DNA from: an uncultured Sphingomonadaceae bacterium
Lineage (GTDB): Bacteria > Pseudomonadota > Alphaproteobacteria > Sphingomonadales > Sphingomonadaceae
Assembly (NCBI GenBank): GCA_903871605.1
Contig: CAIQHF010000051.1
Location: 124,001 to 188,000, forward strand
Direction: 5' to 3'
DNA length: 64,000 bases
Of the stretch, positions 3,969-25,584 are shown piece by piece. A program made the translations under genes and the position numbers. The stretch's first letter is position 1. The number at the start of each line of letters is the position of its first letter. The notes under the pieces were generated by a model that saw only the letters and a list, made by a program, of their open reading frames with translations, was not told the origin of the DNA and did no database searches.

Positions 3969-4907
3969 ATGATGAAGAAGATCCTGTTCAGCTACGTGCA
4001 GCCCGCAATGGTGGCGATGGTGCTGCTGTTCTGGGCGTTCGGCCCAGCGACATGGCTCGCCAACGCCTGGGCACTGACCGCGGCGACGTCGGTCACCACC
4101 CTGATCGTGCTCGGGCTCGAATGGATCAACGAACGCCATGCCAGCTGGCGGATGACCAGGACCGAATTCTTCACCGACCTGTTCTACATGGTCCTCGGCG
4201 CGACCGTCATCTCGTGGGTCACGACCAAATTGGCCGACGATCAGCTCAAGTCGGCCAAGCATGCGCTCGGCATCGCCACGCCGTGGGCGATGCACCTGCC
4301 CTTCCTCGCGCAGGTCGCGCTCGTCGTCTTCCTCGTCGAATTCGGCCAATATTGGATGCACCGGCTGATGCACAATGCGACGCCCTTCTGGCTGACGCAT
4401 GCGCCGCACCACCACATCACGCAGTTGAACGCGATGAAAGGCGCGGTCGGCAATCCGATCGAGCTGTTCCTGATCAGCCTGAGCGTCGTCGCGCTGTTCG
4501 ATCTGCCGCTGTCGGCCGAGCTCTGCGCGTTCAATATCCTGTCGGTGGTGTCGACCTTCGCGCATGCCAATACGCGCTGCGATCCGCCGCGCTGGTACGC
4601 GTTCCTCTTCACCACCATCCGGCATCACAGCCTCCACCATTCGGTGACCTATGAAGATACGCGCTGCAACTATGCCAATTCGCTGATCCTGATCGACCGC
4701 GTGCTCGGCACCTATCGCGACGGCGAGTCCGAGATGGTCGGCCAGGACGAGCGGCGGCGGCTCTCGATCCCCGAGCAATTCATATTCCCCTTCCAGCCCG
4801 TGATCGCGAAGGTCCGCGCGTGGCGCACCGTCGGCAGGGTCGCGGCCGAACGCGGCAATGGCGCCGACCGGGAGGCTGTCATCCCATCGTCGACAGCCGC
4901 CGTTTGA
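3969..4907 (+). CDS. membrane fatty acid hydroxylase / sterol desaturase family protein
   Basis: The product is 312 residues with several hydrophobic segments (residues about 8-30, 36-55, 70-90, 110-130 and mid-protein). It carries the histidine clusters of the fatty acid hydroxylase superfamily: HRLMHN, THAPHHH, HAN, and HHSLHHS. These histidines bind a di-iron centre that hydroxylates or desaturates lipid-like substrates in the inner membrane. I chose the ATG at 3969 (MMKKILFSY) because the frame upstream is only a shadow of the receptor gene. A 230-base gap separates it from the TBDR, and a secreted beta-propeller gene begins 29 bases downstream. The substrate (sterol, carotenoid, hopanoid or fatty acid) cannot be told from sequence. 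Confidence 0.85.
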   Translation: MMKKILFSYVQPAMVAMVLLFWAFGPATWLANAWALTAATSVTTLIVLGLEWINERHASWRMTRTEFFTDLFYMVLGATVISWVTTKLADDQLKSAKHALGIATPWAMHLPFLAQVALVVFLVEFGQYWMHRLMHNATPFWLTHAPHHHITQLNAMKGAVGNPIELFLISLSVVALFDLPLSAELCAFNILSVVSTFAHANTRCDPPRWYAFLFTTIRHHSLHHSVTYEDTRCNYANSLILIDRVLGTYRDGESEMVGQDERRRLSIPEQFIFPFQPVIAKVRAWRTVGRVAAERGNGADREAVIPSSTAAV

Positions 4908-4936
4908 CCTATCGAGCCAGGGGGCGTTTCACGGTG

Positions 4937-5914
4937 ATGATGCGGGGCTATTGGACAAAGGGCGTAGCTGTCATGGCGATCGGCGCAGGCCTCGCATCCG
5001 CGGCGACCGCCGCCACCGCGCCGGAGCCGCGGGTGATGACCGTTCCGGGTTTTGCCGACTTCCTCGCCGTCGACGGATCGTCGGTCTGGGCGACCAACAA
5101 GGGGCGCGTCGAGCGCTGGTCGAAGAAGGGCAAGTTGGCCGAAGTCGCAATGGCGCACCCGTGCGGCGCGATGGCGGTCGCATTCGGGTCGCTGTGGGTT
5201 GCCGACTGCAAGGAGCAGACACTCAACCGGATCGACCTCAAGACCGCGAAGATCTCGGCGGTGATCGCGACCGGCGTCGCCAATCCCAAGGGCGAGCTGA
5301 ACGTCGTCGCCGGCGCCGGCTCGATCTGGGTGGCAAGCGACGACAAGGGCGTCATCGCGCGCGTCGACCCCGCGACCGACACCGTGACCGCGTCGATCGC
5401 GGTCGATCCCAGCACCTATTATCTGGCCTTCGGCCTTGGATCGCTCTGGGCGGTCAGCGCGGTTCACCAGAGCCTCCAGAAGATCGATGCGCAGACCAAC
5501 GCCGTGGTCACCCGAACGCAGCTCGGCAAAGAGCCCGGCTTCCTCGTCGCGGGCGAGGGCGCGGTCTGGGTGCAGGAACAGGGCGACGGGACGGTGGCGC
5601 GGATCGATCCCGCGACGGGCATCATATCGGGGCGGGTCAAGGTCGACGAGACGCTCGAATATGGCGACATCGATGCCGGCGGGGGGAAGATCTGGCTGCG
5701 CACCACCGCCGGGCAGACGTTCGTCGTGATCGATCCCCAGACGCTTGCGATCCGCGCGCGGGTCGGCGCCGAGACGGGCAGCGGCGCGCTGCGCTATACC
5801 GCCAAGCGCGTTTGGACCACGTCGCACGATGTCCACACGCTGTCATGGTGGAAGCAACCGGCCAAGATCGGCGCCGGGTCCGGCGCCAGGGCCGACGCCA
5901 AGCCCGGTGAATGA
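4937..5914 (+). CDS. secreted beta-propeller protein (YncE / virginiamycin B lyase-like fold)
   Basis: About 325 residues with a signal peptide (GVAVMAIGAGLASAATAATA) followed by six to seven blades. Each blade carries a G-x-G-S-[LIV]-W motif, such as GSSVWATN, GSLWVADC, GSIWVASD, GSLWAVSA, GAVWVQEQ and GKIWLRTT, followed by R-I-D-P-A-T-type strands. This is the YVTN/Vgb-like propeller seen in periplasmic proteins. Only the fold is recognised; lyase activity is not implied. A GGGGG stretch lies about ten bases upstream, with GTG at 4934 and ATGs at 4937 and 4940 all possible. It probably forms one transcription unit with the hydroxylase gene upstream. Confidence 0.75.
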   Translation: MMRGYWTKGVAVMAIGAGLASAATAATAPEPRVMTVPGFADFLAVDGSSVWATNKGRVERWSKKGKLAEVAMAHPCGAMAVAFGSLWVADCKEQTLNRIDLKTAKISAVIATGVANPKGELNVVAGAGSIWVASDDKGVIARVDPATDTVTASIAVDPSTYYLAFGLGSLWAVSAVHQSLQKIDAQTNAVVTRTQLGKEPGFLVAGEGAVWVQEQGDGTVARIDPATGIISGRVKVDETLEYGDIDAGGGKIWLRTTAGQTFVVIDPQTLAIRARVGAETGSGALRYTAKRVWTTSHDVHTLSWWKQPAKIGAGSGARADAKPGE

Positions 5915-6088
5915 CGCCACGCCGGCCTTGGCGCGCCGGCACATCGTCGCGTCATTCCGCGATGATCAGGCACGGTGTCGATCGTTACCGTGCGCGACGC
6001 GCGCCTGCTTTGGGCGAAAGCCCCCTCTGGGGTAAGCCGGCCGGCTGCGTGATCCGTCGCGATCGGCTTGGACCGAATGGCTGGCCCC

Positions 6089-6850
6089 TCAGATCGCCTG
6101 CCCGCCCGAGACCTCGATCCGCTGCGCGTTCACCCAGCGATGGTCCTCCGACAGCAGCGATGCGATCATCGGACCGATGTCGTCGGGCACGCCCGGACGG
6201 CCAAGCGCGGTCGCCTCGGCGATGTGGCGCGCGATCTCGGGGTTGTCGCGCACCGCGCCGCCGCTGAAGTCGGTCGCGATGGCACCGGGAGCGACGGTAT
6301 TCACCGCAATGCGGCGCGGCCCGAGTTCCTTGGCCATGTAGCGGGTCATCACCTCGACCGCGCCCTTCATCGCGGCATAGGCGATGCGGCCGGGATAGAT
6401 GATGCGGGTCAGCCCCGACGAGATATTCACGATACGGCCGCCATCCGCGATAAGCGGCAGCAGCGTCTGAGTCAGGAAGAAAATGCCCTTCACGTGCACC
6501 CGGTAGGCGGCGTCGAAATCCTCTTCGGTGATGCTGCCGAATGCGCCCGTGTGCGAGGTTCCGGCCATGTTGACGAGGAAGTCGAATCGCTCGGCGCGCC
6601 ATTCGCCGAGAACGCGCCGGACCTCGTCTGCGAAGGCCGGCAAGGCGGCACAGTCGCCGGTGTCGAGCCGAAGCGCCACCGCTTGCGCGCCTGCCTGACG
6701 GACCGCGGCGACGACCTCGTCTGCGGCGGCGCGGTTGCTGTTGTAGGTAAGGATCGACGAGACGCCGCGTCGGGCGAGCGCCTCGACCGTCGATCGGCCG
6801 AGGCCGCGGCTGCCACCGGTGACGAGCGCGATAGGGGATTGACCAGGCAT
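6089..6850 (-). CDS. SDR family oxidoreductase
   Basis: A classical short-chain dehydrogenase/reductase of 253 residues. The N-terminal Rossmann motif is TGGSRGLG (residues about 11-18), the NxAG-type motif is VNMAGT, the catalytic serine lies in NISSGLT, and the YxxxK pair is YAAMK. The C-terminal region resembles FabG-like 3-oxoacyl reductases (VAPGAIATDF; PDDIGPMIASLLS). It reduces or oxidises a keto/hydroxy substrate with NAD(P)H in the cytoplasm; the substrate is not evident. It is divergent from the LysR gene at 6952 with about 100 bases between, the usual layout when the regulator controls the neighbouring enzyme. Confidence 0.92.
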   Translation of the reverse strand: MPGQSPIALVTGGSRGLGRSTVEALARRGVSSILTYNSNRAAADEVVAAVRQAGAQAVALRLDTGDCAALPAFADEVRRVLGEWRAERFDFLVNMAGTSHTGAFGSITEEDFDAAYRVHVKGIFFLTQTLLPLIADGGRIVNISSGLTRIIYPGRIAYAAMKGAVEVMTRYMAKELGPRRIAVNTVAPGAIATDFSGGAVRDNPEIARHIAEATALGRPGVPDDIGPMIASLLSEDHRWVNAQRIEVSGGQAI

Positions 6851-6951
6851 AGCGAACTCCGTTCCGATGAAGGCGCGAGGGTAAGCGAGCGCCGCCCGTT
6901 TGATTAGGCCGCTATTGTCGGCCAGTTTGTTCTGGCCCAGGAAACGATCTG

Positions 6952-7848
6952 ATGGACCGTTTCACGACCCTCGCGCTCTTTGTCCGCATCGTCGACCGCG
7001 GCAGTTTCAGGGGCGCCGCCGCCGATCTCGGCATATCGCGCCCGGCCGCCACCTCCGCGATCAAGGAACTCGAGCAGCGACTTGGCACGCGGCTTCTCCA
7101 GCGCACGACGCGTCACGTTCAGGCGACGGCGGAGGGCCAGGCCTATTATCATCGCTGCGTGGCGATCCTCGCTGATCTCGAAGACGCCGATCGTGGTGCC
7201 GGTGGCGCGGTCGCCGGGCTGCTGCGCGTCGACGTCGTCGGCAATCTCGCGCGCACCATAATGCTTCCGGCGTTGCCCGCGTTTCTCGCGCGCCACCCCG
7301 CGCTCACCGTCCATCTCGGCGAGGGGGAGCGGTTCGTCGATCTCGTGCGGGAGGGCGTCGATTGCGTCGTGCGCGCCGGCGAACTGGCGGACAGCGACAT
7401 GGTGGTGCGCAGGCTCGGGACCATGGAGGAGATCACGGTCGCAAGCCCCGCCTATCTCGCCCGGCACGGAACACCCGGGTCGCCGGATATGCTCGACGGG
7501 CATGTCATGGTGGGCTTCGTTTCCTCGCGCACCGGCCAGCCGCTGCCGCTCGAGTTCACGCGCGACGGCGAGGTGGTCGAGGTCGCGCTGCCGGCGCGCG
7601 TGTTGGTCGGAGGCGCCGATACGAGCGCAGAGGCGGCGCGGCTCGGTCTGGGGCTTGTCCAGGCACCGCGCTATCGCTTCGCGGGCGACCTCGCCTCGGG
7701 CCGGCTGGTTGAGGTGCTGCCCGACTTCCCGCCGACGCCGACGCCCGTGTCGGTCCTCTATCCCAGCAGCCGTCAGCTATCGCCCCGGGTGCGGGTGTTC
7801 ATCGACTGGCTGGTCGAAACCGTCACCCCGACATTCGCTACCGCCTAG
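6952..7848 (+). CDS. LysR family transcriptional regulator
   Basis: The product is 298 residues. An N-terminal winged HTH (residues 1-60; FVRIVDRGSFRGAAADLGIS, then SAIKELEQRLGTRLLQRTTR) is followed by a periplasmic-binding-protein-like effector domain. The linker and substrate half resemble the DhpR/AaeR-like LysR group that often sits beside SDR genes. It is divergent from the SDR at 6850, so it probably activates that gene and represses itself from the shared 101-base gap. The effector is unknown. Confidence 0.92.
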   Translation: MDRFTTLALFVRIVDRGSFRGAAADLGISRPAATSAIKELEQRLGTRLLQRTTRHVQATAEGQAYYHRCVAILADLEDADRGAGGAVAGLLRVDVVGNLARTIMLPALPAFLARHPALTVHLGEGERFVDLVREGVDCVVRAGELADSDMVVRRLGTMEEITVASPAYLARHGTPGSPDMLDGHVMVGFVSSRTGQPLPLEFTRDGEVVEVALPARVLVGGADTSAEAARLGLGLVQAPRYRFAGDLASGRLVEVLPDFPPTPTPVSVLYPSSRQLSPRVRVFIDWLVETVTPTFATA

Positions 7849-7904
7849 CGGTGTGCGGGTCTCCGTTGTCTTGTCCAGCCGAAGAGCGAGTATCCAGCGT
7901 CATT

Positions 7905-8327
7905 CGGTCGCTAGGGTAGCCGTAACAGCAGCATCTTGTAGCGGCGTCGGCCAGCGATAGGAAACCAGCGCGCGTTCACGCACGTGCTCGACGCCGAGCA
8001 CCGCGCAGCTACGCCGGCCGTTGACCCCATGCGACGTCTGGACGGGCGCGATGCGCTCGCGCCGCCGCCCAGTCTCGAACATTGTTTTGGCAGCACCTCC
8101 TGCAGGTACGCTTGTCCAGGCTGAGATCCGCGACAAGCGGCTCGAGCTTACGATTTTCGTAGTCGAGCTGCCGCGCTTAGGAGCTCGCCAACGCTGAGCC
8201 CGCGAACATCGCCTTCCAATGGTAGAATGCCTGTCCCACCCCCTCGGCGCATGACTTCGGCCACCGGCGTCCCGTCCGCGCCTCCGCAAAAGCAATCTGC
8301 TCGTCCGTGTGTCGCGATTTTCTTCAT
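7905..8327 (-). pseudogene. decayed IS3-family transposase (orfA and start of orfB)
   Basis: Read on the minus strand from an ATG at 8327, pieces of an IS3-family OrfA can be followed by hopping frames: MKKIATHG, then GTPVAEVMRR, then GLSVGEL, then QLDYENRKLEPLVADLSLDK, then LQEVLPKQ. Beyond these lie traces of the OrfB start (RRSCAVLGV; YRWP). Intact OrfA has AGTPVAEVCRK, GVSELRRLRQLEDENRKLK and VADLSLDK in the same order. Several frameshifts make it non-functional, and no terminal repeats could be fixed. It marks past mobile-element activity at the left edge of the defence-like island. Confidence 0.6.
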
Positions 8328-10478: not shown

Positions 10479-11360
10479 TCATTTCGTATCACTCGGAAAC
10501 AGGATCTCGATCGGCGTAAACACCTCGCCAGTTTCAGCTGCGCGTCGCACCTTCAGTGTCACTAGGGCATCGATTCCGATCTCGCGTTCGAGCGCAATCT
10601 TGATTTCCCGCCCTTCCAGACAGACAAGTTTTTTGCCCTTTCCAAAAGCGGCGAGCCCTTGGGTCGTGAATCCGCCAAAGCTGACGAACAGGCCCCTCGC
10701 CCACGCGGCCTTCTGCTCGATTTTGCCATGGAAGCCGTGCAGCTCCGCAATGCTAACCTTTCGATTGATCCATTTCGCTTCAAGCAAATAGGTCTCGCTC
10801 GCGAGATGGAAACTTCCATCAATCTGCTCGCCGTCCAGTCGGAATGGCTCCCGGGCTGCCAATCCGAACGCATTGAAAAGCTCCGTCAGATAGGCCTCAA
10901 ACGCGTAGCCGCGCTCGTGCGGTGAAAGATCGCGCACCGCGAACAGGCGATCGCGAAGCCCTGCGAAGTCCTGCATCGCCAATTTTGGCGCTGGCACCAA
11001 TCCGGTAGGGATGCTCGTCGCGGTGCCTTCCAGACGCGCGATCACCGCAAAGATCTGCTTGCGGGAAAGCGGCGGTCCGTCGTCCTGGTTCTGCCCCTGC
11101 AGCATCGCCTCGCGATATTCCCACAGGAGCCGTAGCGTCCTTGCGGCGGTCCCGTCGTCGACAATCGCGAGGAAGCCGCGAAGCCGCTTGCCTTTCGAGG
11201 TACCCTCGCGCTCGTAGATCTTAGCGTCGATGTCGATGTCGAGCTCCAGCGCGAAGAACTCGGAAAAGGTCCGGTTCGAAAAATCGAGGATGTAGCCACG
11301 CTCCCCGCCCCGGAAGACGAGGTCGACCATGTCCAGCTCGACGGGCCGAATCGTGCTCAT
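10479..11360 (-). CDS. Mrr-type restriction endonuclease-like protein (PD-(D/E)XK)
   Basis: The product is 293 residues. The C-terminal half (about 145-250) fits an Mrr_cat nuclease: GYAFEAYLTELF with E155, D181 in EQIDGSF, E194-A-K196 in YLLEAKW, then a Q216-bearing helix (GKIEQKAAW). The N-terminal half (1-85; GGERGYILDFSNRTFSEFF, TSKGKRLRGFL) resembles a domain seen at the front of Abi-type and nuclease proteins in defence loci. I chose the ATG at 11360 (MSTIRPVEL). A 15-codon reading frame starting at 11404, inside the preceding toxin gene, ends TGA overlapping this ATG, which may couple translation. No methylase is nearby, so a type IV (modified-DNA) or abortive-infection nuclease is likely. 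Confidence 0.72.
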   Translation of the reverse strand: MSTIRPVELDMVDLVFRGGERGYILDFSNRTFSEFFALELDIDIDAKIYEREGTSKGKRLRGFLAIVDDGTAARTLRLLWEYREAMLQGQNQDDGPPLSRKQIFAVIARLEGTATSIPTGLVPAPKLAMQDFAGLRDRLFAVRDLSPHERGYAFEAYLTELFNAFGLAAREPFRLDGEQIDGSFHLASETYLLEAKWINRKVSIAELHGFHGKIEQKAAWARGLFVSFGGFTTQGLAAFGKGKKLVCLEGREIKIALEREIGIDALVTLKVRRAAETGEVFTPIEILFPSDTK

Positions 11361-11400
11361 AACAGCGCGCCCGATCGCGCGATGTAGCAACCGGCCACCA

Positions 11401-11676
11401 TCATGAGAACAGTTCGCTGTGTGACCCCAACCGGGCCAAGGTCAGCGTAGTCTCGTTCGGCTTCGCATAGATCAGCACGAGATCCGGGCGCACATGGCAG
11501 TCCCGGTAGCCCGCCCATGTCCCGCTGAGGCCGTGGTCCCGATGCTTCTCAGGTAAGGCCGCGTCGGCGATGAGCAGTTCGATCACGAGCACCAACATGG
11601 CGTCGAGCGCCGCATCGGTCCGCTTCTCCCGCTTATAGTCGCGCTTGAACTTGCTGGTGCGTTCGATCTCACGCAT
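11401..11676 (-). CDS. yafQ: YafQ-family type II toxin (RelE/ParE superfamily mRNA interferase)
   Basis: The product is 91 residues and follows YafQ closely: REIERTSKFKRDYKREKR, a helix with LIADAALPEKHRDHGLSGTWAGYRDCHVRPDLVLIYA, and a terminal LARLGSHSELFS. YafQ cleaves translating mRNA at lysine codons. Active-site histidines of the family fit H-R-D-H, the H of CHVRPD and the final GSHSELF. The start ATG overlaps the stop of the upstream gene (bases TGATG, with a GTG alternative at 11679). The gene directly upstream is not an antitoxin. A DinJ-type antitoxin lies instead at 12712 on the opposite strand, an unusual split arrangement. Confidence 0.85.
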   Translation of the reverse strand: MREIERTSKFKRDYKREKRTDAALDAMLVLVIELLIADAALPEKHRDHGLSGTWAGYRDCHVRPDLVLIYAKPNETTLTLARLGSHSELFS

Positions 11677-12308
11677 CACGACGTCGCATTCGTATCCGCA
11701 GCGGGAGCTTCAGGTGCGGTGGGTGCCGCCGGCACCGGCGGCGGTGGCGGCGGTGGCGGCGGAGGAGGAGCCGTCTTCGGAGAATGCGGCGTCTCCCACG
11801 GCTGCGTCATGTCGACGGCTCCGACTTCAAGCGCCGTTTCGATCAGCGCATTGTAGCTCGCCTCCGTCAGCCCCGGCGTCTTGATGTGGTGGTGCCAGCG
11901 CAGGATGTAGTGCGGATTCCAGATGATCGCGTTTCCAAGCGGCCCCGACTTCCCCGGCTTGATGTCGATAAATTCAAGATCTTGCAGCATCTTCATGCGC
12001 GTCGCCCATGTGTGCTCTCCACGCTGGCCGCCGAACCCCGAGGCGTTGGCCATGTCGGCATTTTTGTTGAGAACGACGAAATTATTGTCCCAGGTGTTGC
12101 ACCATAGGGTCAGGTAGGTCGCCGACACCGGCGTCCCCTTCGTCATTTCGTCCATAATTTTGAGCATAAGCGGCATAGTTTTCGGGATCGTCGTAAAGCC
12201 CTTTTGCTTCTTACGATCCCAGAGCCAAACTTCTTTGCCCGGCCACAGATGATCGCGCAGTTGCTGCTGCTTCTTCGTTATCGCGCTTACTTCCCGTACT
12301 GACGCCAT
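11676..12308 (-). CDS. conserved hypothetical protein with polyproline tail
   Basis: The product is 210 residues starting at ATG 12308 with AAAAGGGG eight bases upstream. The first 150 residues form a compact domain (VWLWDRKKQKGFTTIPKTMP, then PVSATYLTLWCNTWDNNFVVLN, then GQRGEHTWATRMKMLQDLEFIDIKPG). It looks like a winged-helix DNA-binding protein of the replication/regulatory type, but I cannot name the family. The C-terminus is a tract of about eleven prolines followed by PVPAAPTAPEAPAA, likely a disordered linker or SH3-like binding tail. It heads an operon with the YafQ-type toxin and then the Mrr-like nuclease, so it could be the DNA-binding regulator or the missing antitoxin. Confidence 0.6.
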   Translation of the reverse strand: MASVREVSAITKKQQQLRDHLWPGKEVWLWDRKKQKGFTTIPKTMPLMLKIMDEMTKGTPVSATYLTLWCNTWDNNFVVLNKNADMANASGFGGQRGEHTWATRMKMLQDLEFIDIKPGKSGPLGNAIIWNPHYILRWHHHIKTPGLTEASYNALIETALEVGAVDMTQPWETPHSPKTAPPPPPPPPPPPVPAAPTAPEAPAADTNATS

Positions 12309-12507: not shown

Positions 12508-12571
12508 AGCCGGGTTTATCCCGTTATATCAGCGGGTTCTATGATATCGCGCTGTTCTCATATGTCCTGGT

Positions 12572-12607
12572 TGTGCTGTATGTGCTGCATGTTCTGCATG
12601 TGCTGCC
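12572..12607. repeat. four 9-base tandem repeats
   Basis: TGTGCTGTA, TGTGCTGCA, TGTTCTGCA and TGTGCTGCC run head to tail with two-base divergence at most. They lie about 105 bases upstream of the DinJ-type start. If translated in the DinJ frame they give a Cys/Met-rich string, but the antitoxin homology begins only after 12712, so this is more likely non-coding. Confidence 0.55.
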
Positions 12608-12674
12608 GGGGATGGTGCAGGAAGGGGGTGGGCGAAAAACTTGACCTCAGAGGCGTAACGGACCATTTAGAATG

Positions 12675-12684
12675 TGTAGCTACA
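12675..12684. promoter_or_regulatory. palindrome before dinJ-like gene (autoregulatory operator candidate)
   Basis: TGTAGCTACA is a perfect 10-base palindrome ending 27 bases before the antitoxin ATG. DinJ/RelB antitoxins are ribbon-helix-helix proteins that repress their own promoters at short palindromes, so the position fits. A TTGACC hexamer lies upstream at 12641. Confidence 0.45.
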
Positions 12685-12711
12685 ATGTGGCCACTAGACA
12701 GGATGAAAGCC

Positions 12712-12978
12712 ATGGCCGCCGCTGAAGTCGTTAGAGCGCGCATCGACGCGACCTTGAAGAAGGAAGCCACTAGCGTCCTCGGGACGATGGGCCTGTCCGT
12801 GTCGGACGCTATTCGCATGATGCTCGTCCGCGTCGTCGCGGACCGCAGCTTGCCGTTTGAGGTCCGCTCACCCAACCGGGAGACGGAAGCTGCCCTAGAG
12901 GCGGCAGCGCGGGGAGATGTGACTCGCTTTTCGAGCGTCTCCGACCTCATGGCTGACCTGAACGACGATAAGGACTGA
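12712..12978 (+). CDS. dinJ: DinJ/RelB-family antitoxin
   Basis: The product is 88 residues from ATG 12712 (AGGA at 12699-12702). The ribbon-helix-helix part is VVRARIDATLKKEATSVLGTMGLSVSDAIRMMLVRVVADRSLPF, which matches DinJ (R-x-D-x-x-L-K-x-x-A; G-L-x-x-S-x-A-I-R). The C-terminal toxin-binding tail is PNRETEAALEAAARGD...SVSDLMADLN. No toxin follows it. The cognate toxin is presumably the YafQ-type gene at 11401-11676, about 1 kb away on the other strand. A longer frame from 12541 would add a Cys-rich N-terminus encoded by tandem repeats, which I regard as untranslated. Confidence 0.82.
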   Translation: MAAAEVVRARIDATLKKEATSVLGTMGLSVSDAIRMMLVRVVADRSLPFEVRSPNRETEAALEAAARGDVTRFSSVSDLMADLNDDKD

Positions 12979-12989
12979 ATTTCCACCAG

Positions 12990-13017
12990 TCCGATAATGA
13001 GAGCGACTGCTATCGGA
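12990..13017. terminator. weak hairpin after dinJ-like gene
   Basis: TCCGATA and TATCGGA form a 7-base-pair stem with a 14-base loop, starting 12 bases after the antitoxin stop. There is no clear T-tract, so termination is only a possibility. The HEPN gene converges from the right and ends at 13112. Confidence 0.3.
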
Positions 13018-13111
13018 TCTCATGTCGGGTTTGATGGGCGGCACGGCCAACTTACTTAGCCTGACTCAGATATCGTCGCGAATGGCCATTTCGTTCAAGC
13101 CGTTGGGGCCG

Positions 13112-13810
13112 CTATTCACCGATGAGATTGATCTTGCCTATCCGCTTGAGCTCGCGACGAAACCAAGCCTTATAGTCCTTATTTGCCGTGGCGATTTCCG
13201 ATCCCGCATCGATCTCGCCAAGATTAAAATCGTCGGGCACCGAGAAGCGAATGCCTTTTCGAAGCAGGGTGCCAACGAGATAGTCGTAGCCGATGTGGTG
13301 ATCCTCGTGATGCTCGATAGCATACAGATTGAACCGGTCACGGATCAGGGGGTCTATGATCCGATAGATAAACTTCAGTGCAATCGCCGATGGGTTCTCG
13401 TCTTCAGGCGGGCAAAAATGCTGGACCGCATTTCGTGTTTTGCGCAAGCGTTCGTAGCATGCCGGATCTGGAATCCGGATGCCGGTGGTCGCCCAGAGCA
13501 CCTGCGGAAGTTTCTCGAAGTCGTGCGTCCGGCCACGTTTCAATAGGGTGGGCAAATCGAGATCGACCGAGCTGGCGTCATCGAGGCCGGGGACATCCTT
13601 GAAGATTAGCAGGGGGTGCTCGGTTGCGATGATCGCCTTGATGAAAAGCTCTCCCGCATGAGCGGCATTGAGTACCGACATCAGGGGCCAATGCTCGTTT
13701 CCGGGGTCCATGAAACCGGCGTGCATGTTCGCCTGCATGAGCGATGCCCGTGCAAGACCAAGGATGCGCGAGGGTATCTCAGCGAGGAGTTCGTGCCTAG
13801 ATCCCGTCAC
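13112..13810 (-). CDS. HEPN-domain protein (candidate RNase, partner of the GHKL ATPase)
   Basis: From GTG 13810 the product is 232 residues. GTGA at 13810-13807 overlaps the ATPase stop codon, which fixes the start. The N-terminal 130 residues are helical and end in RLRKTRNAVQHF. RNAVQH (R126, H131) matches the R-x4-6-H motif of HEPN ribonucleases. An earlier helix (NAAHAGELFIKAII) resembles the first HEPN helix of Abi-type proteins. The C-terminal 100 residues (ALKFIYRIIDPLIRDRFNLYAIEHHEDHH) are not recognised. The tight coupling to a GHKL ATPase suggests a sensor/effector pair in which the HEPN protein cleaves RNA on activation. That function is inferred. Confidence 0.65.
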   Translation of the reverse strand: MTGSRHELLAEIPSRILGLARASLMQANMHAGFMDPGNEHWPLMSVLNAAHAGELFIKAIIATEHPLLIFKDVPGLDDASSVDLDLPTLLKRGRTHDFEKLPQVLWATTGIRIPDPACYERLRKTRNAVQHFCPPEDENPSAIALKFIYRIIDPLIRDRFNLYAIEHHEDHHIGYDYLVGTLLRKGIRFSVPDDFNLGEIDAGSEIATANKDYKAWFRRELKRIGKINLIGE

Positions 13811-15891
13811 TCCTCTTCGGCCTCGACGGCCGGCTCCTTCGGTTCGAGCGGCGTCGCTCGCTTCCTGCTCAGGCCGGCAGCATGAAGTGTCGCGCGGTTG
13901 CGCATCCACGCATCGTTGACTAGATCCTGCCACTGAATGACTTCAATCTGCCCGCTATACTGGCCCCGAAGCGAGCGTATCCGCCCCTTTCCGTTTGATG
14001 TCGTATCCCAAGCCGAGAGCTGTTGCTCGAGATCGCCGACGATGTCGGCGACGACGTAACAATAGTAGATGCAGTCATTTGCGACTCGCACGCGGGCGCG
14101 ATCGAACGTCTCGATCTCGCCGCCTTTCATCTGCGCGAGATACTTCGTGATCTGCTGCTCGATCTGATCCTCGGCCTTCCGATAGAGCTTGCGGCCTGGC
14201 TTCTTGAATTCGACGACCATCACGGTCCGCAACGGCTCATTGAGCTCCACCTCTTCCGGATCCGTTGGATCGGTCGCGCCTAGTCCGTAGGCCAAATCCC
14301 AGACCAGAAGGTCCGGGCGATCACCGGAACCGCCCTCGGCCATGATCGCGTCGAGTCGCTTGTCCGAGGAGAACGCACGAGTGAATGCCAGCCGCTCGTC
14401 AATCACCCAGAGATCGTGCGCACGGCTCTTGAATTCGGTCGCATCATCGCCCTTCACGCTCATCGGAACGATGAAGGAATGGAGCGTGCGCTCTAGGTGA
14501 TAATCATCCTCTTGATCCCCTCGCCCCCGGATGCGTCTGATGAGCTTGTCGAGTAGTTCAAGCGCAAGCTTGCGACGGACGACGTGCTGGGCAAGCGCTA
14601 GGCGCTCCGACGTTTGGATGTCTTGGGCCGCCTTGGCGACCGATGCCTCGTAGCTGAACGGCACTGCTTCCAGATCTAGGGCATCGATGAGAGTCTGTAG
14701 ACTCTCCTGCCGCCGCTCCTCCCGCCGGATTTGATATTTGATCAGCCCCGAAGCGAAGTCTTCGGCGCTCGTGGCGTGGAAGGGCACGCGACCGAGCTGA
14801 GTATCGTCATCATCGAAGCCGAAAGTCGGATACCGCTCGACAAAATCCACATAATCTTCTCTGCGCTTCTCGACATAAATCTTCACTTGGTCGGGCAGCA
14901 GCTTCTCTCGGACCTGCTCCATGCACGCACGGCTGATATCCTTGAGCATGCGCTCCGGCAGATTGAAGGCCGTGCGGCCCTCATTTACGCGCAGATCGAG
15001 ATACTCGCCCGACACGCACCCATGAAAGACGAGGTGCTCCTTGCCGTCACGTACCAGATTCACGACGCCCAGCAGGTTATCAACCTTCCGGGTCTCCACG
15101 GTCCGGCTATTCGCAAGAAGATGGAGTTGGTGCTGTCCATCGAGGCCCGTGCTTGCCTCGGCATGACAGGTAAATCCGACGATGCTCAGCTCGCCGAAGA
15201 TGTCATGCTCGAAGCTGGTTTCGAGCGGGCCGCCGACTTTGAGCTCGGAAATCTCCTTGGGATATGCGACCGTTTCGCCATCGAGATCCACGGCGATCGA
15301 CGCGCCGCCGCCCAGCAGGAAATCGGCTATGAAGTGCGCACTGAAATAGCGGAAAAAAGTTTCGGCGCGCTTCGGGAAGGTCTCGGCATATTCCTTGATG
15401 CGTAGTCCTTTGAAGCGGACTGTCGTCCCTCTTGAGGAGCCAGCTTGGACCTGCTGCTCATCGCCATTGGGTAGGACTTGCTCGTCGTTGTTGAGCATAA
15501 ACGCAAATTCGCGCCGGATCGGGAGGCCCTCCTGCTCATAAGTGCTTTCGACCGTGATCTCGCTAAACGCATCCAGCCAGAAGAGACGGCCAACCCCCTT
15601 GCCACCGCGCTTCCTTTTGAAGTCGGTATCGATTTGGCAGAACGCGCGATAGCGATCGAGGTCCAAGCCAATTCCGTTGTCCGTAATCGCAATCTCGATA
15701 CGCTGTGGATCCGACAGCGCCGTGATGCGGATGCCGATCGTGCCCAGTGCGGCTTTATCGTCGAAACGGTCCTCGATCGCGAACATGGCATTGCTTACCG
15801 CTTCGAAAAGCGGCTGAAGGCCTTGCGTCGCGTTGGAGGGCTTAGGCAGCTTGCGGACGCGATTCTCGATGTTCGGCGTCAGCGAGGGCAT
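13807..15891 (-). CDS. GHKL ATPase fused to a PD-(D/E)XK-like domain
   Basis: The product is 694 residues, with AAGAAGGG six bases before the ATG. The N-terminal GHKL (HSP90/MutL/MORC-type) ATPase shows the N-box E30-x3-N34 (EAVSNAMFAIEDR), the G1 motif D71-N-G-I-G, and the G2 loop GGKGVGR (96-102). A middle transducer region follows (200-320), then a helical linker. The C-terminal part (about 465-600) has E468 in YHLERTLHSF, D527 in RPDLLVWD and E561-F-K563 in MVVEFKKPGRKLY, followed by DQIEQQITKYL. This is a PD-(D/E)XK-type arrangement like Shedu/DUF4263 nucleases. The C-terminus is acidic. It is coupled to the HEPN gene. No histidine-kinase phospho-acceptor is visible, so it is unlikely to be a kinase. 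I know of no named system with this exact pairing. Confidence 0.7.
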   Translation of the reverse strand: MPSLTPNIENRVRKLPKPSNATQGLQPLFEAVSNAMFAIEDRFDDKAALGTIGIRITALSDPQRIEIAITDNGIGLDLDRYRAFCQIDTDFKRKRGGKGVGRLFWLDAFSEITVESTYEQEGLPIRREFAFMLNNDEQVLPNGDEQQVQAGSSRGTTVRFKGLRIKEYAETFPKRAETFFRYFSAHFIADFLLGGGASIAVDLDGETVAYPKEISELKVGGPLETSFEHDIFGELSIVGFTCHAEASTGLDGQHQLHLLANSRTVETRKVDNLLGVVNLVRDGKEHLVFHGCVSGEYLDLRVNEGRTAFNLPERMLKDISRACMEQVREKLLPDQVKIYVEKRREDYVDFVERYPTFGFDDDDTQLGRVPFHATSAEDFASGLIKYQIRREERRQESLQTLIDALDLEAVPFSYEASVAKAAQDIQTSERLALAQHVVRRKLALELLDKLIRRIRGRGDQEDDYHLERTLHSFIVPMSVKGDDATEFKSRAHDLWVIDERLAFTRAFSSDKRLDAIMAEGGSGDRPDLLVWDLAYGLGATDPTDPEEVELNEPLRTVMVVEFKKPGRKLYRKAEDQIEQQITKYLAQMKGGEIETFDRARVRVANDCIYYCYVVADIVGDLEQQLSAWDTTSNGKGRIRSLRGQYSGQIEVIQWQDLVNDAWMRNRATLHAAGLSRKRATPLEPKEPAVEAEEE

Positions 15892-16036
15892 GGTGACCCT
15901 TCTTTGGTTTCGTCGTTGACTCGCATTGGCGCCCCCTCAGACCCATACCTAACTTATATGCTGCGATTAGCCAGCAGAGGCGTGGCGGCGACTCATGCGC
16001 TTCCCGCCGATGAGAGGGCATCTGTTAGCGGACCCC

Positions 16037-16338
16037 CTAACGGAAATCCCTTGGCTTGACCTTGATTCCCGCCGTCGGCTGACCAGGAATGATGCCGGAG
16101 CCCAATTTGAAGTCAGGAATGTATATATCGCGCGCGCTACGACCGAAGGGGCGTTGCTCGGGAGCTCGCGGGTCTGGCGACATCGGACTCTTGACCACGT
16201 CGGCCCGGCTGACCCGGTAGATATCAGCCACGTCGGCACGCCGGCCCACGCTTGCGAGCAGACCTGACAGATCGTCGAGGCGCTGCGCCACGATGTGAAT
16301 CACATCGCCTTCGCGCTGCACCTGGCCGCGTCGTGCCG
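16037..16338 (-). pseudogene. C-terminal relic of a second dnaE2
   Basis: The minus-strand frame ending at 16037 reads QREGDVIHIVAQRLDDLSGLL, then RDIYIPDFKLG and a terminal IKVKPRDFR. These are the final OB-fold strand and the typical C-terminus of DnaE2 error-prone polymerases. About 100 codons remain and nothing upstream. The relic starts directly after the stop codon of the Lamassu SMC gene (16339). It differs from the intact dnaE2 tail at 30585, so it comes from another copy. Between it and the GHKL start (15892-16036) there is only a promoter-sized gap. Confidence 0.75.
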
Positions 16339-18279
16339 TTACGGCCCATGATAATAGGAGATCAAAGGAGGGTTATCCGGATCGTCTTCTGTCATCAGGC
16401 GATCGGTAAACTCGAGCGTGCTGTCATCTGCAGGCTCAACCAGGAGTTGATCGACGATGATCACCTGATGATCGGACAGGTCGCTCTCCGCCACCTCGTA
16501 CAGATATTTGTAGAAGGCTTGAACCAGTTCCGGGTTGATATCAGGCGTAATATTTTTCAGCGGCGTGTCGATCATCAACAGCGTCGGCACCGGGAGATTG
16601 CGCTCCGCCGCCGTGCGGTGAAGCGCCAACGCGAAGCATATCGTCAGCAGCGTCTTCTTACCGCCGCTCCCGGCAGTGTAGAAGCTGTATGCTGCTGCCT
16701 CGTCGCCACTGGGCCAGATTTCGGGGATCATCGTTCGCCGATTGATATGGACCTCATCCTTCCCGCCAACGCCGGGGACATGGGTCGCGACCAAAGCCTT
16801 CAGGAAATTAGTTTCGAGCGCCGCGAAATTGGCATCTGCCTTGCTCAAGCGTCGCTGCTCCTCGCCGATCTCGCGCTCGAGCCGGTCAAGATCCTTGGAA
16901 AGCGCGTCGGCATCCTCGATCATCTTGGTGACGGCGTCGGGCATGGCACTCACCCGATCGAGGAACCTTGCGCGCTCGTCGAGCTCTGCCATTTCGCGCT
17001 GCGCGTCCCGTGTACGGGCAAGGCGATCCGACTCATAGTTCGCGAGCAGTTCTGCGACGCGCCGGTCGAGTAGATTCTTCTCCGCCATCACTGAAGCGAT
17101 GCGCGTTTCCTGCCGCTTCCTCGATAGTGCATGCCGGCGCAACGACGCTTCGATGTCCGCCAGACGGGCGTCGAGGTCGCTGTTGATCGACGCCGGCGTG
17201 ATCGCATTTTCATCCGGGCGCAGCGGCTGCAAGCACAGATAGCAATTATCACCGTGAGACCGGTGCGTGCTCACCGGTTGCCCACATTGCGGGCAATTCT
17301 CGAAAGCGCTTCCCGCCAGCACCGCGCGGGCACGGTCGGCTCGCGCCACCTTGAACTTCATCGAAAGGAGTTCCGAGCGGAGCTCACGCTGCTCTGTGAG
17401 TCGAAACTCAAGATCATCTAGCGTCTCACGCTCGCGCTCCAGCGTATCCGACATCTGCCTCAGCCGCACGCGTTGGTCGTCGACGAAATGGGTGTCCTTC
17501 AGATAGGCGGCGGTGTCGGCGCCAAGAAGGCGGCGCAGTTCGTCGGATCGCGCGCGTACCTTTTCGAGCTCGGTGGTGATTTGCCCTGTCGACGCGAAAT
17601 CGAACTCCCGCAGAAACTCGCGGATCCGTTCGGCAGCATCACGCTTGGCGCGTTGTTCCGATCGCGTCTGGTCATATTGCGTCTGCAAGGTGCTGAGCAC
17701 CTCGCTGTAATAGCCAGTGAAAAAGTTTAGGCTGTCCTTGCTCTTCTCCGCCAGCACAGGCGCGTTCAAGCGGAAGAAGGACGAGTCCAGTTCCTCCTGT
17801 TCGAGATAGCAGAATTTGAAAAGATCGCGGAAACTGAGCCTCACCATCGGTGAGTCCTCGTCGCCTGTGCGTTTGCGGACCCGGATGATTGGGTAACCGA
17901 GAAGGCGGAAGAGCAGGTCACTCAGATTGATGACATCCGTTCCGTAAACGACCGGGCCATCGCCTTTCGCGCGAACTTGGAGGCTGACGGGACCCTCGTC
18001 CGGATCCATCCACGAGACCCTTACGAAGCCCTCGCCCTTGCTGCGCTCGATCAGGACATCGAGATCCCGCACCTTGAGCGTCAACGCAGCGGCAAGGAAT
18101 TCGCGCTGAACTGCGGTAGTCAGCTCAAGGTTGCCGCCAAGGCAGAAATCGATCAGCCGAACGACCGTTGATTTTCCGAGACTAAGCGTGCCGTGGATGA
18201 AGGTGATGTTGCGCGAGAACGTCAGGACCTCCTCGCTTTGTCGGCACAATAGCTTTAGCGTTTGGAGACGGATTTTCAT
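16339..18279 (-). CDS. lmuB: Lamassu LmuB-like SMC ATPase (DUF3732, ABC-three-component system)
   Basis: The product is 646 residues. Walker A is GTLSLGKST (30-38). Long coiled coils (about 195-325 and 360-480) flank a zinc hook with C329-P-Q-C332 and C346-Y-L-C349. The C-terminal lobe has an ABC signature (SGGKKTLLTICFAL) and Walker B PTLLMIDTP. This is the Rad50-like SMC layout of Lamassu LmuB, matching the DUF3732 N-terminus with its IDFCLGG motif. The ATG overlaps the stop of the middle-component gene (ATGA). In known Lamassu systems the SMC complex senses foreign DNA ends or structures and unleashes the LmuA effector. It is the last gene of the operon and abuts the dnaE2 relic. Confidence 0.85.
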   Translation of the reverse strand: MKIRLQTLKLLCRQSEEVLTFSRNITFIHGTLSLGKSTVVRLIDFCLGGNLELTTAVQREFLAAALTLKVRDLDVLIERSKGEGFVRVSWMDPDEGPVSLQVRAKGDGPVVYGTDVINLSDLLFRLLGYPIIRVRKRTGDEDSPMVRLSFRDLFKFCYLEQEELDSSFFRLNAPVLAEKSKDSLNFFTGYYSEVLSTLQTQYDQTRSEQRAKRDAAERIREFLREFDFASTGQITTELEKVRARSDELRRLLGADTAAYLKDTHFVDDQRVRLRQMSDTLERERETLDDLEFRLTEQRELRSELLSMKFKVARADRARAVLAGSAFENCPQCGQPVSTHRSHGDNCYLCLQPLRPDENAITPASINSDLDARLADIEASLRRHALSRKRQETRIASVMAEKNLLDRRVAELLANYESDRLARTRDAQREMAELDERARFLDRVSAMPDAVTKMIEDADALSKDLDRLEREIGEEQRRLSKADANFAALETNFLKALVATHVPGVGGKDEVHINRRTMIPEIWPSGDEAAAYSFYTAGSGGKKTLLTICFALALHRTAAERNLPVPTLLMIDTPLKNITPDINPELVQAFYKYLYEVAESDLSDHQVIIVDQLLVEPADDSTLEFTDRLMTEDDPDNPPLISYYHGP

Positions 18280-18827
18280 TGATCGATTGTCTCGCCCATG
18301 CGCAAGGAAGCCACTTCCGGGAAATTCTCATAGATGAATTCCATCAAGGTTGTGGCGGTCAAATTCAGGTGCCTCTTGAGGAGGGCGGCGCGCTGACGGA
18401 TTCCGGCATACTCCGGCTCGGACTTGAGAATCTCAGCCGCCTCCCGTCCGCGCTCGGTCTGCCCGATGATAACGGTTCGTCCAGCAGTATGGACGTGGAT
18501 CAAGCCGCGACCCGCCAAGGTGTTGAGGAAGCGCCGGTAGCGATGATCCCAGGGGCCATATTTGAAACGAACCATTCGCGCTTCGATCGAATTGCGTTCG
18601 AACTCCTCGACCCGGACCTGTGATGCGTCGCTGCCGCGCACCCTGATCGCGCGCTCCAGAAACGCAGGATAACGCAGCAGGAAGTCGAGCTTGGCAAGCT
18701 TGGTAAGCCCTTCCAATTTCTGGTCGCCGGCCTTGCCGGCAAACGCATCGATCAGCACCAGCAGCCGGCCGAGATGAAGCGAGTCGTCGCCCTCAAGGTG
18801 ATTGACGATTTCGGGGAGGGTGCTCAC
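18276..18827 (-). CDS. lmuC: Lamassu LmuC-like middle component
   Basis: The product is 183 residues. The pattern LGRLLVLIDAFAG, GLTKLAKLDFLLRYPAFLERAI, FKYGPWDHRYRRFLNTLAGRGLIHV, then TERGREAAEIL is that of the ABC-three-component middle component, a winged-helix kleisin-like adaptor bridging the SMC and the effector. GTG 18827 overlaps the LmuA stop (GTGA), and its own stop overlaps the LmuB ATG (ATGA), so all three proteins are made from one coupled message. No catalytic motif is expected or seen. Confidence 0.8.
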   Translation of the reverse strand: MSTLPEIVNHLEGDDSLHLGRLLVLIDAFAGKAGDQKLEGLTKLAKLDFLLRYPAFLERAIRVRGSDASQVRVEEFERNSIEARMVRFKYGPWDHRYRRFLNTLAGRGLIHVHTAGRTVIIGQTERGREAAEILKSEPEYAGIRQRAALLKRHLNLTATTLMEFIYENFPEVASLRMGETIDQ

Positions 18828-20059
18828 GTGTCAGACACCGCCGGCGAAAGGTCACGGTCGGTGCTCCACCACACCTTGCACTCCTCGGAAAGAAGTCCCG
18901 CCGTTCCGACGAGATGCTCCGATCGGCATCCGAACAGGCTATCCCTCTCACCGGCTGTCGTCGCTCGCGTCCGCCCCCGTAGATCGGTGAGCATCGCCTG
19001 ACCGTAGGCACTGGACCCGGTCGAGGTTTGGGCTTCCGCCTCTCTTGCGGCGCGGTTGGCAAGATATTGGAAATGGGCAAGCCGCCGGTTGGCCTCGGCC
19101 AGCCCGAACTTTTCCTTCCAGCCCAGGAACGTCCGCTCGAGCGAGGCGACGTCATCCTTCATTTGCTCCACATCTGCATAGCCTATGCCGCCAGCCGCCA
19201 TCTTCAATTCCATCCGGCCCAACCCGGGTGGAATGCTTTCGCGCGCAATGAATTCACGGATGCTGAGCAGTTCCTGGTGATCCGAGGCGGCCGGTATGGT
19301 CAGACTCGCTATCAACTCACGGTCGAGACGCTTCCGGCGCGTACGAAGCTCCTCCACGTGGCTGGCGAAATCCTCAACCACGGCGTGGCTCTCGAGGACA
19401 TAGCCGTCCAACGCGAGTGAGCTTACATTCCAGATATGGGACCGGATGGCATCCGCCATCCGGTACAGCTCGAATACCGACTGATTGCCTAGCGTATCGA
19501 TCTCGCCCAGCGCCCGCACAAGGTCCAGTTCGGGCTGATCGATTCCCGTCTTGCGTTCCTCAAGGCGGACCTTGCTCAACGCCGCGATGACATGCTCGAC
19601 CGCCATCGCGGTACTTTCCGCGAACTCAGCAAGACATTTGCGCACCTTGTGCCGCGGACCGAGCCCATCCAGTTTGGGGTTCTCGCGACAGCAGCTCAAC
19701 ATTGTGCCGACGTCGTCCTCGGTCGCATTATCGTGAAACACGAAATTGGTCGCGAGGATGAATCGCTCGAACTGGCCAGGATAGCGCGCGTCTCGCACGC
19801 AGAAGCGCTTCAACGCCCCGGAGACGGATTTGTCCGTGAGACGAAATTGCGGCTGATCCAACTCCCGCGTCTTAACCTGAATCCCTGTGAACTGCCCATT
19901 GGCACCTTCGACAAGAACGTCCTCCAGATGCTCGCAATATACGCTGCGGACAGGGGAGCCGGGCGTCAGCATTTGGAGAGCCTTCAACGCCGCATAGTTG
20001 ATCTGGTATCGAAAACGCCGCTGGACTTCATCTCCCGGATCACGGGGTAGATCATTCAT
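18824..20059 (-). CDS. lmuA: Lamassu LmuA-like effector with Cap4/DUF4297-type nuclease domain
   Basis: From ATG 20059 the product is 411 residues. The N-terminal domain has DEVQRRFRYQINYAALKAL, then E46-D47 in CEHLEDVLVE and Q61-V-K63 in FTGIQVKTR. This is the ED...QxK signature of Cap4-type dsDNA endonucleases (DUF4297), a PD-(D/E)XK fold common in Lamassu LmuA. The rest is helical with a coiled-coil-like C-terminus. The frame is open to 20401, but homology starts at MNDLPRD, and the upstream part overlaps unrelated pseudogene sequence. It leads the lmuA-lmuC-lmuB operon. Activation probably degrades DNA during phage or plasmid invasion, as shown for Lamassu-Cap4. Confidence 0.82.
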   Translation of the reverse strand: MNDLPRDPGDEVQRRFRYQINYAALKALQMLTPGSPVRSVYCEHLEDVLVEGANGQFTGIQVKTRELDQPQFRLTDKSVSGALKRFCVRDARYPGQFERFILATNFVFHDNATEDDVGTMLSCCRENPKLDGLGPRHKVRKCLAEFAESTAMAVEHVIAALSKVRLEERKTGIDQPELDLVRALGEIDTLGNQSVFELYRMADAIRSHIWNVSSLALDGYVLESHAVVEDFASHVEELRTRRKRLDRELIASLTIPAASDHQELLSIREFIARESIPPGLGRMELKMAAGGIGYADVEQMKDDVASLERTFLGWKEKFGLAEANRRLAHFQYLANRAAREAEAQTSTGSSAYGQAMLTDLRGRTRATTAGERDSLFGCRSEHLVGTAGLLSEECKVWWSTDRDLSPAVSDT

Positions 20060-20488
20060 CGTCTTGCTCGCCCCCGCGGGAAGGTGACCACGGCCATCTT
20101 CCTTGTTTTCTGGCTCTAGGCGTAACACCTTTGGATGGCGGATCAAGTTGATGAAGCGGCGAGGCCGCACATCAGCCGCGAATGACCCAGGATCGGACGA
20201 TCGAAGCCGAGCGCCTGGCGCGGGAGAAGCGAAGGTCGATTGGTTGGGCGGCTGCCCGCTGCGCGGGCACCGGGCTCTTTCTCCGCTGCGCTCCGCCCGA
20301 GCTCGGGCTGCGCCCGGAAGTCTTGCCGACGCCACAACAGACCGCCGATCTCGCCGACGTCTACCAACCCGAGCGCTGGCTCGACGATGCGCTGTTTGCA
20401 CCCGAGGTCAGAGCCGCCTATTTCAGATTGCTCGATCAGGGTTGGACGGATTCACTCCGTACGATCCAATCCCGACGAGACGATCTAA

Positions 20489-24807: not shown

Positions 24808-25584
24808 ATGTCAGCAGTCCCCCCTTTTCAGCACCGGGATCGTTCCGACCAGCTCGCCGCGCTTCGCGCCGAGTTGGCGCACGCGCAGGAAAGTCGTGGC
24901 CCCGCGCTCGCGTTCGGGATCGATGCGCTCGACCGTCGACTTGCCGATCATGGCCTGGATGGCGCTGGCCTTCATGAAATTGCGGCCGCTTCAGCCTCGC
25001 TGAGCGACGATGCCGCGGCAACCTTGTTCACGGCCGGTATCGCGGCGCGTTTCGCATCGCAGCCCGGCTTCACCGTGCTGTGGGTGCTCACGCGGTTCGA
25101 TCTCTACGCGCCAGGGCTGGAGCAGATCGGGCTTGGGCCTGATCGGATATTCTATGCCCAGGGGACGAAGGACGCCGACGTGCTGGCGATGGCCGAGGAT
25201 GGTCTCCGCGACGGCGGGCTCGCTTGCGTCGTGGCCGAGGTGAAGGCGGCCGACCAGACGGCCACGCGCCGCCTTCAACTTGCCGCCAGCGACGGCAAGA
25301 CGCCGATCCTGCTCTATCGCCGGCATCGGTCGCGCGAGCGCTGCCCCCTGTCCGAGCTCTCCGCCGCCATGACCCGTTGGCGTGTCGGCGCGGCTTCGTC
25401 CGAACCCTTGCCACATCCGGGTGTCGGCGGGGCGCGATGGTCGGTCGAGCTGGTCCGCCAGCGAAACGGCAACGCATTTTCCCTCGAGCTGGAGGCGTGC
25501 GATGCCAAGGGTCGCCTCGCTCTACCTGCCGCAGCTCGCGATCGAGCGGCTGCGTCGGGTGGAGCGGCCAGCAAAGCCGCCTGA
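24808..25584 (+). CDS. imuA: ImuA, RecA-like mutasome component
   Basis: The product is 258 residues with a shortened RecA-like fold, without a clear Walker A (GAGLHEIAAASASLSDDAAATLF takes its place). It contains VLWVLTRFDLYAPGLEQIGLGPDRIFYA and DGLRDGGLACVVAEV, typical of ImuA in alphaproteobacteria. ImuA helps deliver the translesion polymerase DnaE2 with ImuB. Start ATG 24808 lies just after the SOS box. The 3' end overlaps imuB by about 80 bases in another frame. Confidence 0.88.
   Translation: MSAVPPFQHRDRSDQLAALRAELAHAQESRGPALAFGIDALDRRLADHGLDGAGLHEIAAASASLSDDAAATLFTAGIAARFASQPGFTVLWVLTRFDLYAPGLEQIGLGPDRIFYAQGTKDADVLAMAEDGLRDGGLACVVAEVKAADQTATRRLQLAASDGKTPILLYRRHRSRERCPLSELSAAMTRWRVGAASSEPLPHPGVGGARWSVELVRQRNGNAFSLELEACDAKGRLALPAAARDRAAASGGAASKAA

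Follow-up and report, generated by a model that had tools for sequence, protein, structure and literature searches.

A paraMORC3/VcSduA-like GHKL ATPase gene overlapping a probable HEPN gene beside Lamassu in an uncultured Sphingomonadaceae bacterium

The described systems closest to the locus reported here, a pair of overlapping genes for a GHKL ATPase/nuclease and a probable HEPN protein in a 64,000-nucleotide stretch of DNA from an uncultured Sphingomonadaceae bacterium (contig CAIQHF010000051.1; the whole stretch is called the window below), are paraMORC3 and VcSduA. In the account of Iyer et al. (2008), paraMORC3 proteins carry a GHKL ATPase, an S5 domain and a C-terminal domain of restriction endonuclease fold with E-D-ExK, and they are described as laterally mobile, with a subset that is stand-alone in proteobacteria (PMC2292703). 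VcSduA, from VSP-II WASA of Vibrio cholerae, is presented in a 2025 study as a "Shedu with GHKL ATPase N-terminal domain" that has a C-terminal PD-(D/E)xK domain (DUF4263), and its authors tie it to both paraMORC3 and Shedu type I-D (PMC12137116). As reported there, VcSduA, examined as a single gene, guards E. coli against Drexlerviridae and V. cholerae against vibriophage X29; the substitutions E27A and K557A each destroy its activity, protection is alike at every multiplicity of infection tested, and infected cultures go on growing (PMC12137116). Shedu has been summarised as sensing DNA ends via an N-terminal clamp (PMC12904381). Finally, HEPN domains of the Ymh type are described as fused to paraMORC C-termini in restriction-modification (R-M) loci, and DUF3644 as an HEPN family (PMC3710099).

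The window ATPase is filed here as paraMORC3/VcSduA-like; this half of the pair is already described. We consider it likely that the long protein is a self-sufficient anti-phage DNase of this type, with the HEPN partner as an optional addition. An earlier sequence-only reading of the locus had found no named system of this composition, which holds for the pair, no description of a GHKL-nuclease gene with an HEPN gene having been found in the open-access texts and extracts consulted, but not for the ATPase-nuclease, described as paraMORC3 (PMC2292703) and VcSduA (PMC12137116). The translations bear out that reading's coordinates, the 694-residue length, the N-box, DNGIG and GGKGVGR motifs, D527, E561-x-K563, the GTGA overlap and RNAVQH. 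The features of the pair are:

13807-15891, minus strand: GHKL ATPase/nuclease, 694 amino acids (open reading frame and motifs)
13112-13810, minus strand: probable HEPN protein, 232 amino acids, GTG start (open reading frame and R126-N-x3-H131)
13807-13810, minus strand: GTGA start/stop overlap, 4 bases (sequence)
Residues about 5-310 of the ATPase: GHKL ATPase and S5 transducer
Residues about 313-475 of the ATPase: helical middle
Residues about 455-672 of the ATPase: PD-(D/E)XK-type nuclease domain

Like paraMORC3 as described, the long protein has a GHKL domain with intact ATP-binding motifs, an S5 domain and a C-terminal E-D-ExK. The ATPase motifs comprise E30 and N34 (N-box), D71-N-G73-I-G75 and GGKGVGR up to R102, and the nuclease domain carries E467, H471, D527, E561-x-K563 and Q580. 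By the published description of VcSduA (PMC12137116), GHKL residue E27 corresponds to E30 of the window protein and nuclease residue K557 to K563, and each ATPase-nuclease is a single gene. A relative from Vibrio fluvialis (L033, 672 amino acids), 28% identical over 97% of the window protein, has E27 and K556. Conservation was assessed in 87 full-length relatives, five short representatives of the 92 clusters introduced below being left out. E467, H471, D527, E561, K563 and Q580 are identical in all 87, as are D71, G73, G75, G99, G101 and R102; E30 and N34 are kept in 86, the remaining row being gapped there, and position 98 has K in 77 relatives and R in the other 10. Among the basic residues of the S5 region, R263 is kept in 86 of the 87 and R306 in every one, and either of these would be the conserved basic finger residue.

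Pfam returned HATPase_c alone for the long protein (4.6e-5, below the curated cut-off), a model found at E ≤0.1 in 36 of 39 relatives. NCBIfam gave only weak kinase-like matches and a search of PDB sequences with the ATPase profile only weak GHKL matches (best E 0.028); PADLOC-DB 2.0.0 had no match for the window ATPase and no family in more than one of the 39 relatives (best LmuA, 3.7e-4). The AlphaFold model, built from a 39-sequence alignment, has a mean predicted local distance difference test score (pLDDT) of 79.6. Foldseek against the PDB matched it to GyrB 43K, topo VI-B, MutL/MLH1, MORC3/MORC4 and Hsp90-type ATPases (E 4e-11 to 3e-9 in the best 50 of 1038), with alignments to GHKL+S5 fragments (GyrB, MutL, MORC3, topo VI-B) spanning 346-530 columns; the fold is GHKL followed by an S5 transducer.

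Evidence on the C-terminal domain comes from hhalign, in which residues 452-672 matched an alignment of four Shedu proteins with probability 65 (E 6e-5), pairing VEFKKP with IEIKKP and the IEVIQWQDL stretch with the C-terminal end of Shedu. Three controls (reversed Shedu alignment, N-terminal domain, HEPN alignment) gave probabilities of at most 0.1 (E 0.42-0.85). Direct assignment to Shedu through sequence hidden Markov models (HMMs) was tried and failed: an HMM from four Shedu sequences found nothing better than E 0.06 in the 87 relatives, Pfam SduA_C found nothing in the window's genome, and profile-profile comparison alone succeeded. We use the label paraMORC3/VcSduA-like because the Pfam Shedu model fails where that comparison succeeds. 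The GHKL fold match, the residues invariant in 87 of 87 relatives and the Shedu profile match together uphold the earlier description of the protein as a GHKL ATPase with a PD-(D/E)XK-like C-terminus. On the V. fluvialis plasmid that carries L033, a canonical Shedu gene overlaps the GHKL-nuclease gene by 4 base pairs (bp), beside type I R-M genes (4622-8016 of that locus).

About 8 of 385 genomes of the class, the window's included, have an ATPase match that goes beyond generic GHKL and covers the C-terminus; a count of 80 of 385 was rejected for the family, most of those rows being N-terminal GHKL only. The window's genome has one match. Fifty plasmid records have matches, and in 45 of them the match spans 80% or more of the query; the carriers include Ti plasmids, pTi_LBA4404 for one, and 32 loci of the family lie in viral contigs. 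This distribution bears on the alternative that the long protein is a MutL-like housekeeping repair protein with no part in defence. Its ATPase fold is indeed MutL/GyrB-like, and some stand-alone paraMORC3 proteins have been suggested to act outside R-M (PMC2292703), but the patchy occurrence, the carriage on plasmids and viral contigs and the protection reported for VcSduA (PMC12137116) make a housekeeping role very improbable. The "ATP-binding protein" of dozens of plasmids and viral contigs can now be placed in an experimentally supported anti-phage family, one that escapes both the Pfam Shedu model and PADLOC-DB 2.0.0.

The small protein is probably an HEPN protein, judging by its motif and weak profile matches, as the sequence-only reading had proposed. 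It contains the R-x4-6-H catalytic motif of the HEPN superfamily as R126-NAVQ-H131, with R126, N127, Q130, H131, E54 and K58 unchanged across all nine homologues aligned. PADLOC model PDC-S64 matches all nine (in the window protein over residues 39-139 only), so that the proposed PADLOC check gave a match for the partner and none for the ATPase. The PADLOC DUF3644 model matches five of the nine at E ≤0.1 (best 5.5e-4; window protein 0.044). None of the nine matched a Pfam HEPN model at E ≤1, and a search of PDB sequences with the partner profile returned nothing relevant. A model built from three sequences is mostly helical (pLDDT 75.4); named HEPN toxins of HEPN-MNT systems occupy 12 of its best 50 Foldseek rows (E 0.49-3.5), and a further row is 7bxo, which we take to be an HEPN toxin.

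The stop TGA of the ATPase gene and the GTG with which the partner starts have four bases in common (...GAGGAGTGACGG...), and the two genes are likely to be translationally coupled through this GTGA overlap. The partner frame stays open upstream as far as an alternative GTG at 13933; we favour the GTG at 13810 because eight homologues begin near the same column, within about six alignment columns of it. These eight were delimited by annotated or first-start frames, with the start of one (L150) picked by eye.

To see how often the two genes pair, we collected 122 ATPase loci (score >250), which form 92 clusters at 90% identity; in 78 of the 92 representatives the sequence extends 1200 bp or more beyond the 3' end of the ATPase gene. 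Neighbours were counted if they encode at least 90 amino acids within 600 bp, which gave 79 downstream and 80 upstream. On the downstream side no cluster recurs more often than the partner family, with 4 of the 79 cases:

Window: 4-base overlap, same strand
Phenylobacterium (L036): 9 bp gap, same strand; ATPase 73% identical to the window's
Agrobacterium plasmid (L030): 82 bp, convergent; ATPase 58% identical
Paracoccus plasmid (L032): 137 bp, same strand; ATPase 25% identical

Wherever the two genes co-occur, in four loci, the first gene of at least 90 amino acids 3' of the ATPase is the partner; on the Paracoccus plasmid a 78-amino-acid frame, unannotated in the record, sits between the two. 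For the three pairs outside the window, this position has p = 4e-4 under random placement, or 3e-3 if either side is counted, in a rough test with 11-18 genes of at least 90 amino acids per locus. The closest relative fetched (L117, 79% identical), the sister of the window ATPase on the tree, is without a partner in the fetched stretch. Within the seven-tip clade that holds the window and L036, only those two tips have one, and L029 has none in the fetched stretch though its ATPase is 92% identical to that of the HEPN-bearing L030. The link between the ATPase and the partner looks non-random but dispensable, since it recurs next 3' and yet is missing from close relatives; a functional link may exist. 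An obligate HEPN partner was rejected, since 75 of the 79 downstream neighbours are something else, and the conserved HEPN companion that the sequence-only reading had proposed to look for in homologue neighbourhoods did not emerge.

Next in frequency downstream is a PIN-type cluster (3 of 79: the Ti plasmid cluster L097, L045 and L080), with a PIN_12 match in two:

L097, 10228-11367: PIN-type gene downstream of the GHKL nuclease
L045, 6625-7770: PIN-type gene, 3 bp gap
L080, 10113-10592: PIN-type gene

This family, which lies immediately 3' of the GHKL nuclease in two lineages besides the Ti plasmids, is a second RNase-type companion. Other downstream-only clusters have at most two members, and two upstream-only clusters have three each. 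Pfam scans covered 79 of 79 downstream and 77 of 80 upstream neighbours (L032, L104 and L109 left out); no HEPN family is among the 25 of 52 downstream and 25 of 64 upstream families listed, which include R-M helicases (ResIII in 3 of 79 downstream and 3 of 77 upstream neighbours), integrases, helix-turn-helix, toxin-like and housekeeping genes. The recurrence of two families 3' of the nuclease in distant lineages, a rare HEPN one and a PIN-type one, makes a layered attack on DNA and RNA a testable idea.

In PrrC-type guarded restriction, an HEPN RNase accompanies a DNA-cutting defence enzyme. The window pair resembles this arrangement in placing a probable HEPN-type RNase beside a putative DNA-cutting defence enzyme, and differs in having no methyltransferase or specificity subunit and a partner that is not fused to an ATPase. 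On such a model the two proteins would form a two-component complex, with the HEPN RNase kept in reserve until the DNase becomes engaged or is blocked, much as PrrC stands guard over a type I R-M enzyme. The 4-bp overlap in the window, the recurrence of the partner next 3' even beside an ATPase only 25% identical and the PIN-type family as next most recurrent neighbour are in line with a complex, and so is the described fusion of HEPN (Ymh) to paraMORC C-termini (PMC3710099). That fusion resembles the window pair in linking a GHKL ATPase to an HEPN domain in R-M neighbourhoods, and differs in being a fusion as against a separate gene, in its HEPN family and in that the account of it, as far as available, mentions no nuclease domain (PMC3710099). 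Against a complex stand the 75 of 79 cases without the partner downstream, its absence from the closest relative fetched, the convergent orientation in L030, the 10 of 14 partner-family loci without the ATPase in the fetched stretch and the examination of VcSduA as a single gene (PMC12137116); on balance we consider such a tied pair unlikely.

The partner family also occurs away from the ATPase, in loci L034, L035, L195, L196, L197, L116, L150/L187, L151/L188 and L186 and a prophage-like locus of E. coli, some of them on plasmids; these are the 10 ATPase-free loci among the 14 distinct ones (CP039891 and CP021433, whose scores equal those of CP039900 and CP020476, were not counted again; the truncated G773 and G976 were left out). 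In E. coli the family is present in 8 of 5,426 genomes, and the two loci inspected (L205, L206) are prophage-like. It is found in 3 of 385 genomes of the class, the window's included, and in 4 of 396 of the order, the window's and two truncated cases included. Two scans of viral contigs found one homologue, L116, and the families of two genomes with the partner and no ATPase nearby (24 and 15 genomes) yielded no further case. In four of these loci the partner directly adjoins another nuclease or HEPN-type gene:

L197, phage: partner overlaps an HNH/Mrr_N gene by 8 bp
L151: partner overlaps a GIY-YIG gene (T5orf172/MUG113) by 29 bp
L150: partner lies 1 bp from a DUF3644 gene
L186, 8107-12697: partner overlaps by 4 bp a gene for a 238-amino-acid RDYFVH protein without a Pfam or PADLOC match

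In the remaining ATPase-free loci no adjacent gene on the partner's strand could be named as a nuclease. A 587-amino-acid gene beside the partner in L116 was considered as a Shedu-like nuclease, which profile comparison did not support. Near the partner gene, L186 also has two genes named by eye, one for a divergent GHKL-like protein and one that is nucleotidyltransferase-like, and L034 of Rhizobium brockwellii an Mrr_cat gene.

This scatter speaks for a plainer alternative, that the HEPN gene has nothing to do with the ATPase and is a toxin or defence gene acting by itself, which chance placed on the 3' side of the ATPase gene within a defence island: prophage-like loci of E. coli and plasmids carry it with no ATPase, and it also lies beside HNH/Mrr_N, GIY-YIG and DUF3644 genes. 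Its position as the next gene 3' in four of four co-occurrences, and never elsewhere in the locus, tells against chance, and we give this alternative serious weight, somewhat short of an even chance. What is left beyond the tied pair and the mere neighbour would be looser cooperation or something else. A broader and rather improbable idea is that this HEPN family, small and mobile, joins defence enzymes that cut DNA but are unrelated to one another, often through genes that overlap or lie close together, and gives each a transferable RNase in reserve, a general "guard" part. If so, and this is just as speculative, the window would hold the GHKL version, with HNH/Mrr_N in the phage and GIY-YIG in another genome, and the guard would fire when the host nuclease is engaged or inhibited.

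Under the reading we prefer, a self-sufficient paraMORC3/VcSduA-type DNase with an optional partner, the GHKL+S5 ATPase dimer would act as clamp and sensor, opening and closing on invading DNA by analogy with Shedu. ATP-driven closure on phage DNA would then license the C-terminal PD-(D/E)XK domain to cut, and the window protein probably cuts DNA. The small gene would be a mobile HEPN-type RNase add-on, co-made with the nuclease through translational coupling; if its product contributes, it would most likely add a second, RNA-directed layer on infection, through a putative RNase activity and perhaps in cooperation with the nuclease. The two-nuclease immune module proposed by the sequence-only reading is possible: the nuclease-type domain, the probable HEPN protein and the defence context agree with it, whereas the optional HEPN gene and the single-gene status of the tested relative VcSduA (PMC12137116) do not.

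Several results weigh against the preferred reading. The model falls below pLDDT 50 at residues 502-548, the nuclease core, and the Foldseek rows (best 50 of 1038) are ATPase proteins; for both reasons, the evidence for the nuclease fold is similarity of motif and profile. Pfam SduA_C (PF14082, DUF4263) matched 0 of 39 ATPase relatives and left the ATPase gene unmatched in 25 of 25 records, one of which has a separate canonical Shedu gene. Its failure to match the window family is a difference from VcSduA, which is likened to the window protein by published description and not by sequence identity (PMC12137116). For the partner, none of the Foldseek matches is significant (best 0.28, a designed protein). 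In hhalign with two DUF3644 proteins, RNAVQH aligned with RHEIEH non-significantly (probability 0.2; reversed control 0.1), and one pair of the four, that of L030, has a convergent and hence uncoupled partner. The published systems also differ in their surroundings: the paraMORC3 account, as far as available, mentions no HEPN neighbour (PMC2292703), and the VcSduA study mentions no overlapping HEPN gene, the word HEPN being absent from its main text (PMC12137116).

Next to the pair lies a Lamassu locus, as the sequence-only reading had stated, and beyond it a mutagenesis locus:

16339-18279, minus strand: LmuB (PADLOC LmuB, 9.5e-76)
18276-18827, minus strand: LmuC (PADLOC LmuC, 3.1e-14)
18824-20401, minus strand: LmuA with Cap4 nuclease domain (Pfam Cap4_nuclease, 7.3e-17; PADLOC LmuA, 5.2e-17)
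25382-27325: IMS-domain ImuB-like protein

These genes are context outside the pair. LmuB and the ATPase gene are separated by 447 bp, within which a fragment at 16037-16321 (minus strand) resembles the C-terminal part of a dnaE2-like gene at 27022-30585 (29 residues, 48%, E 1e-6 in a single comparison). Because of this spacer and fragment, Lamassu and the GHKL-nuclease gene probably do not form one operon, and the fragment suggests that the two units joined through separate insertions near the SOS mutagenesis locus. A scan of 12980-16500 showed no sigma-70-like promoter, a result that is uninformative for the host organism. Close to the island, a gene at 10479-11390 (minus strand) encodes an Mrr_cat restriction endonuclease (Pfam), and a YafQ-type toxin gene (11401-11679, minus strand) stands apart from a RelB/DinJ antitoxin gene (12541-12978, plus strand), an unusual split across opposite strands.

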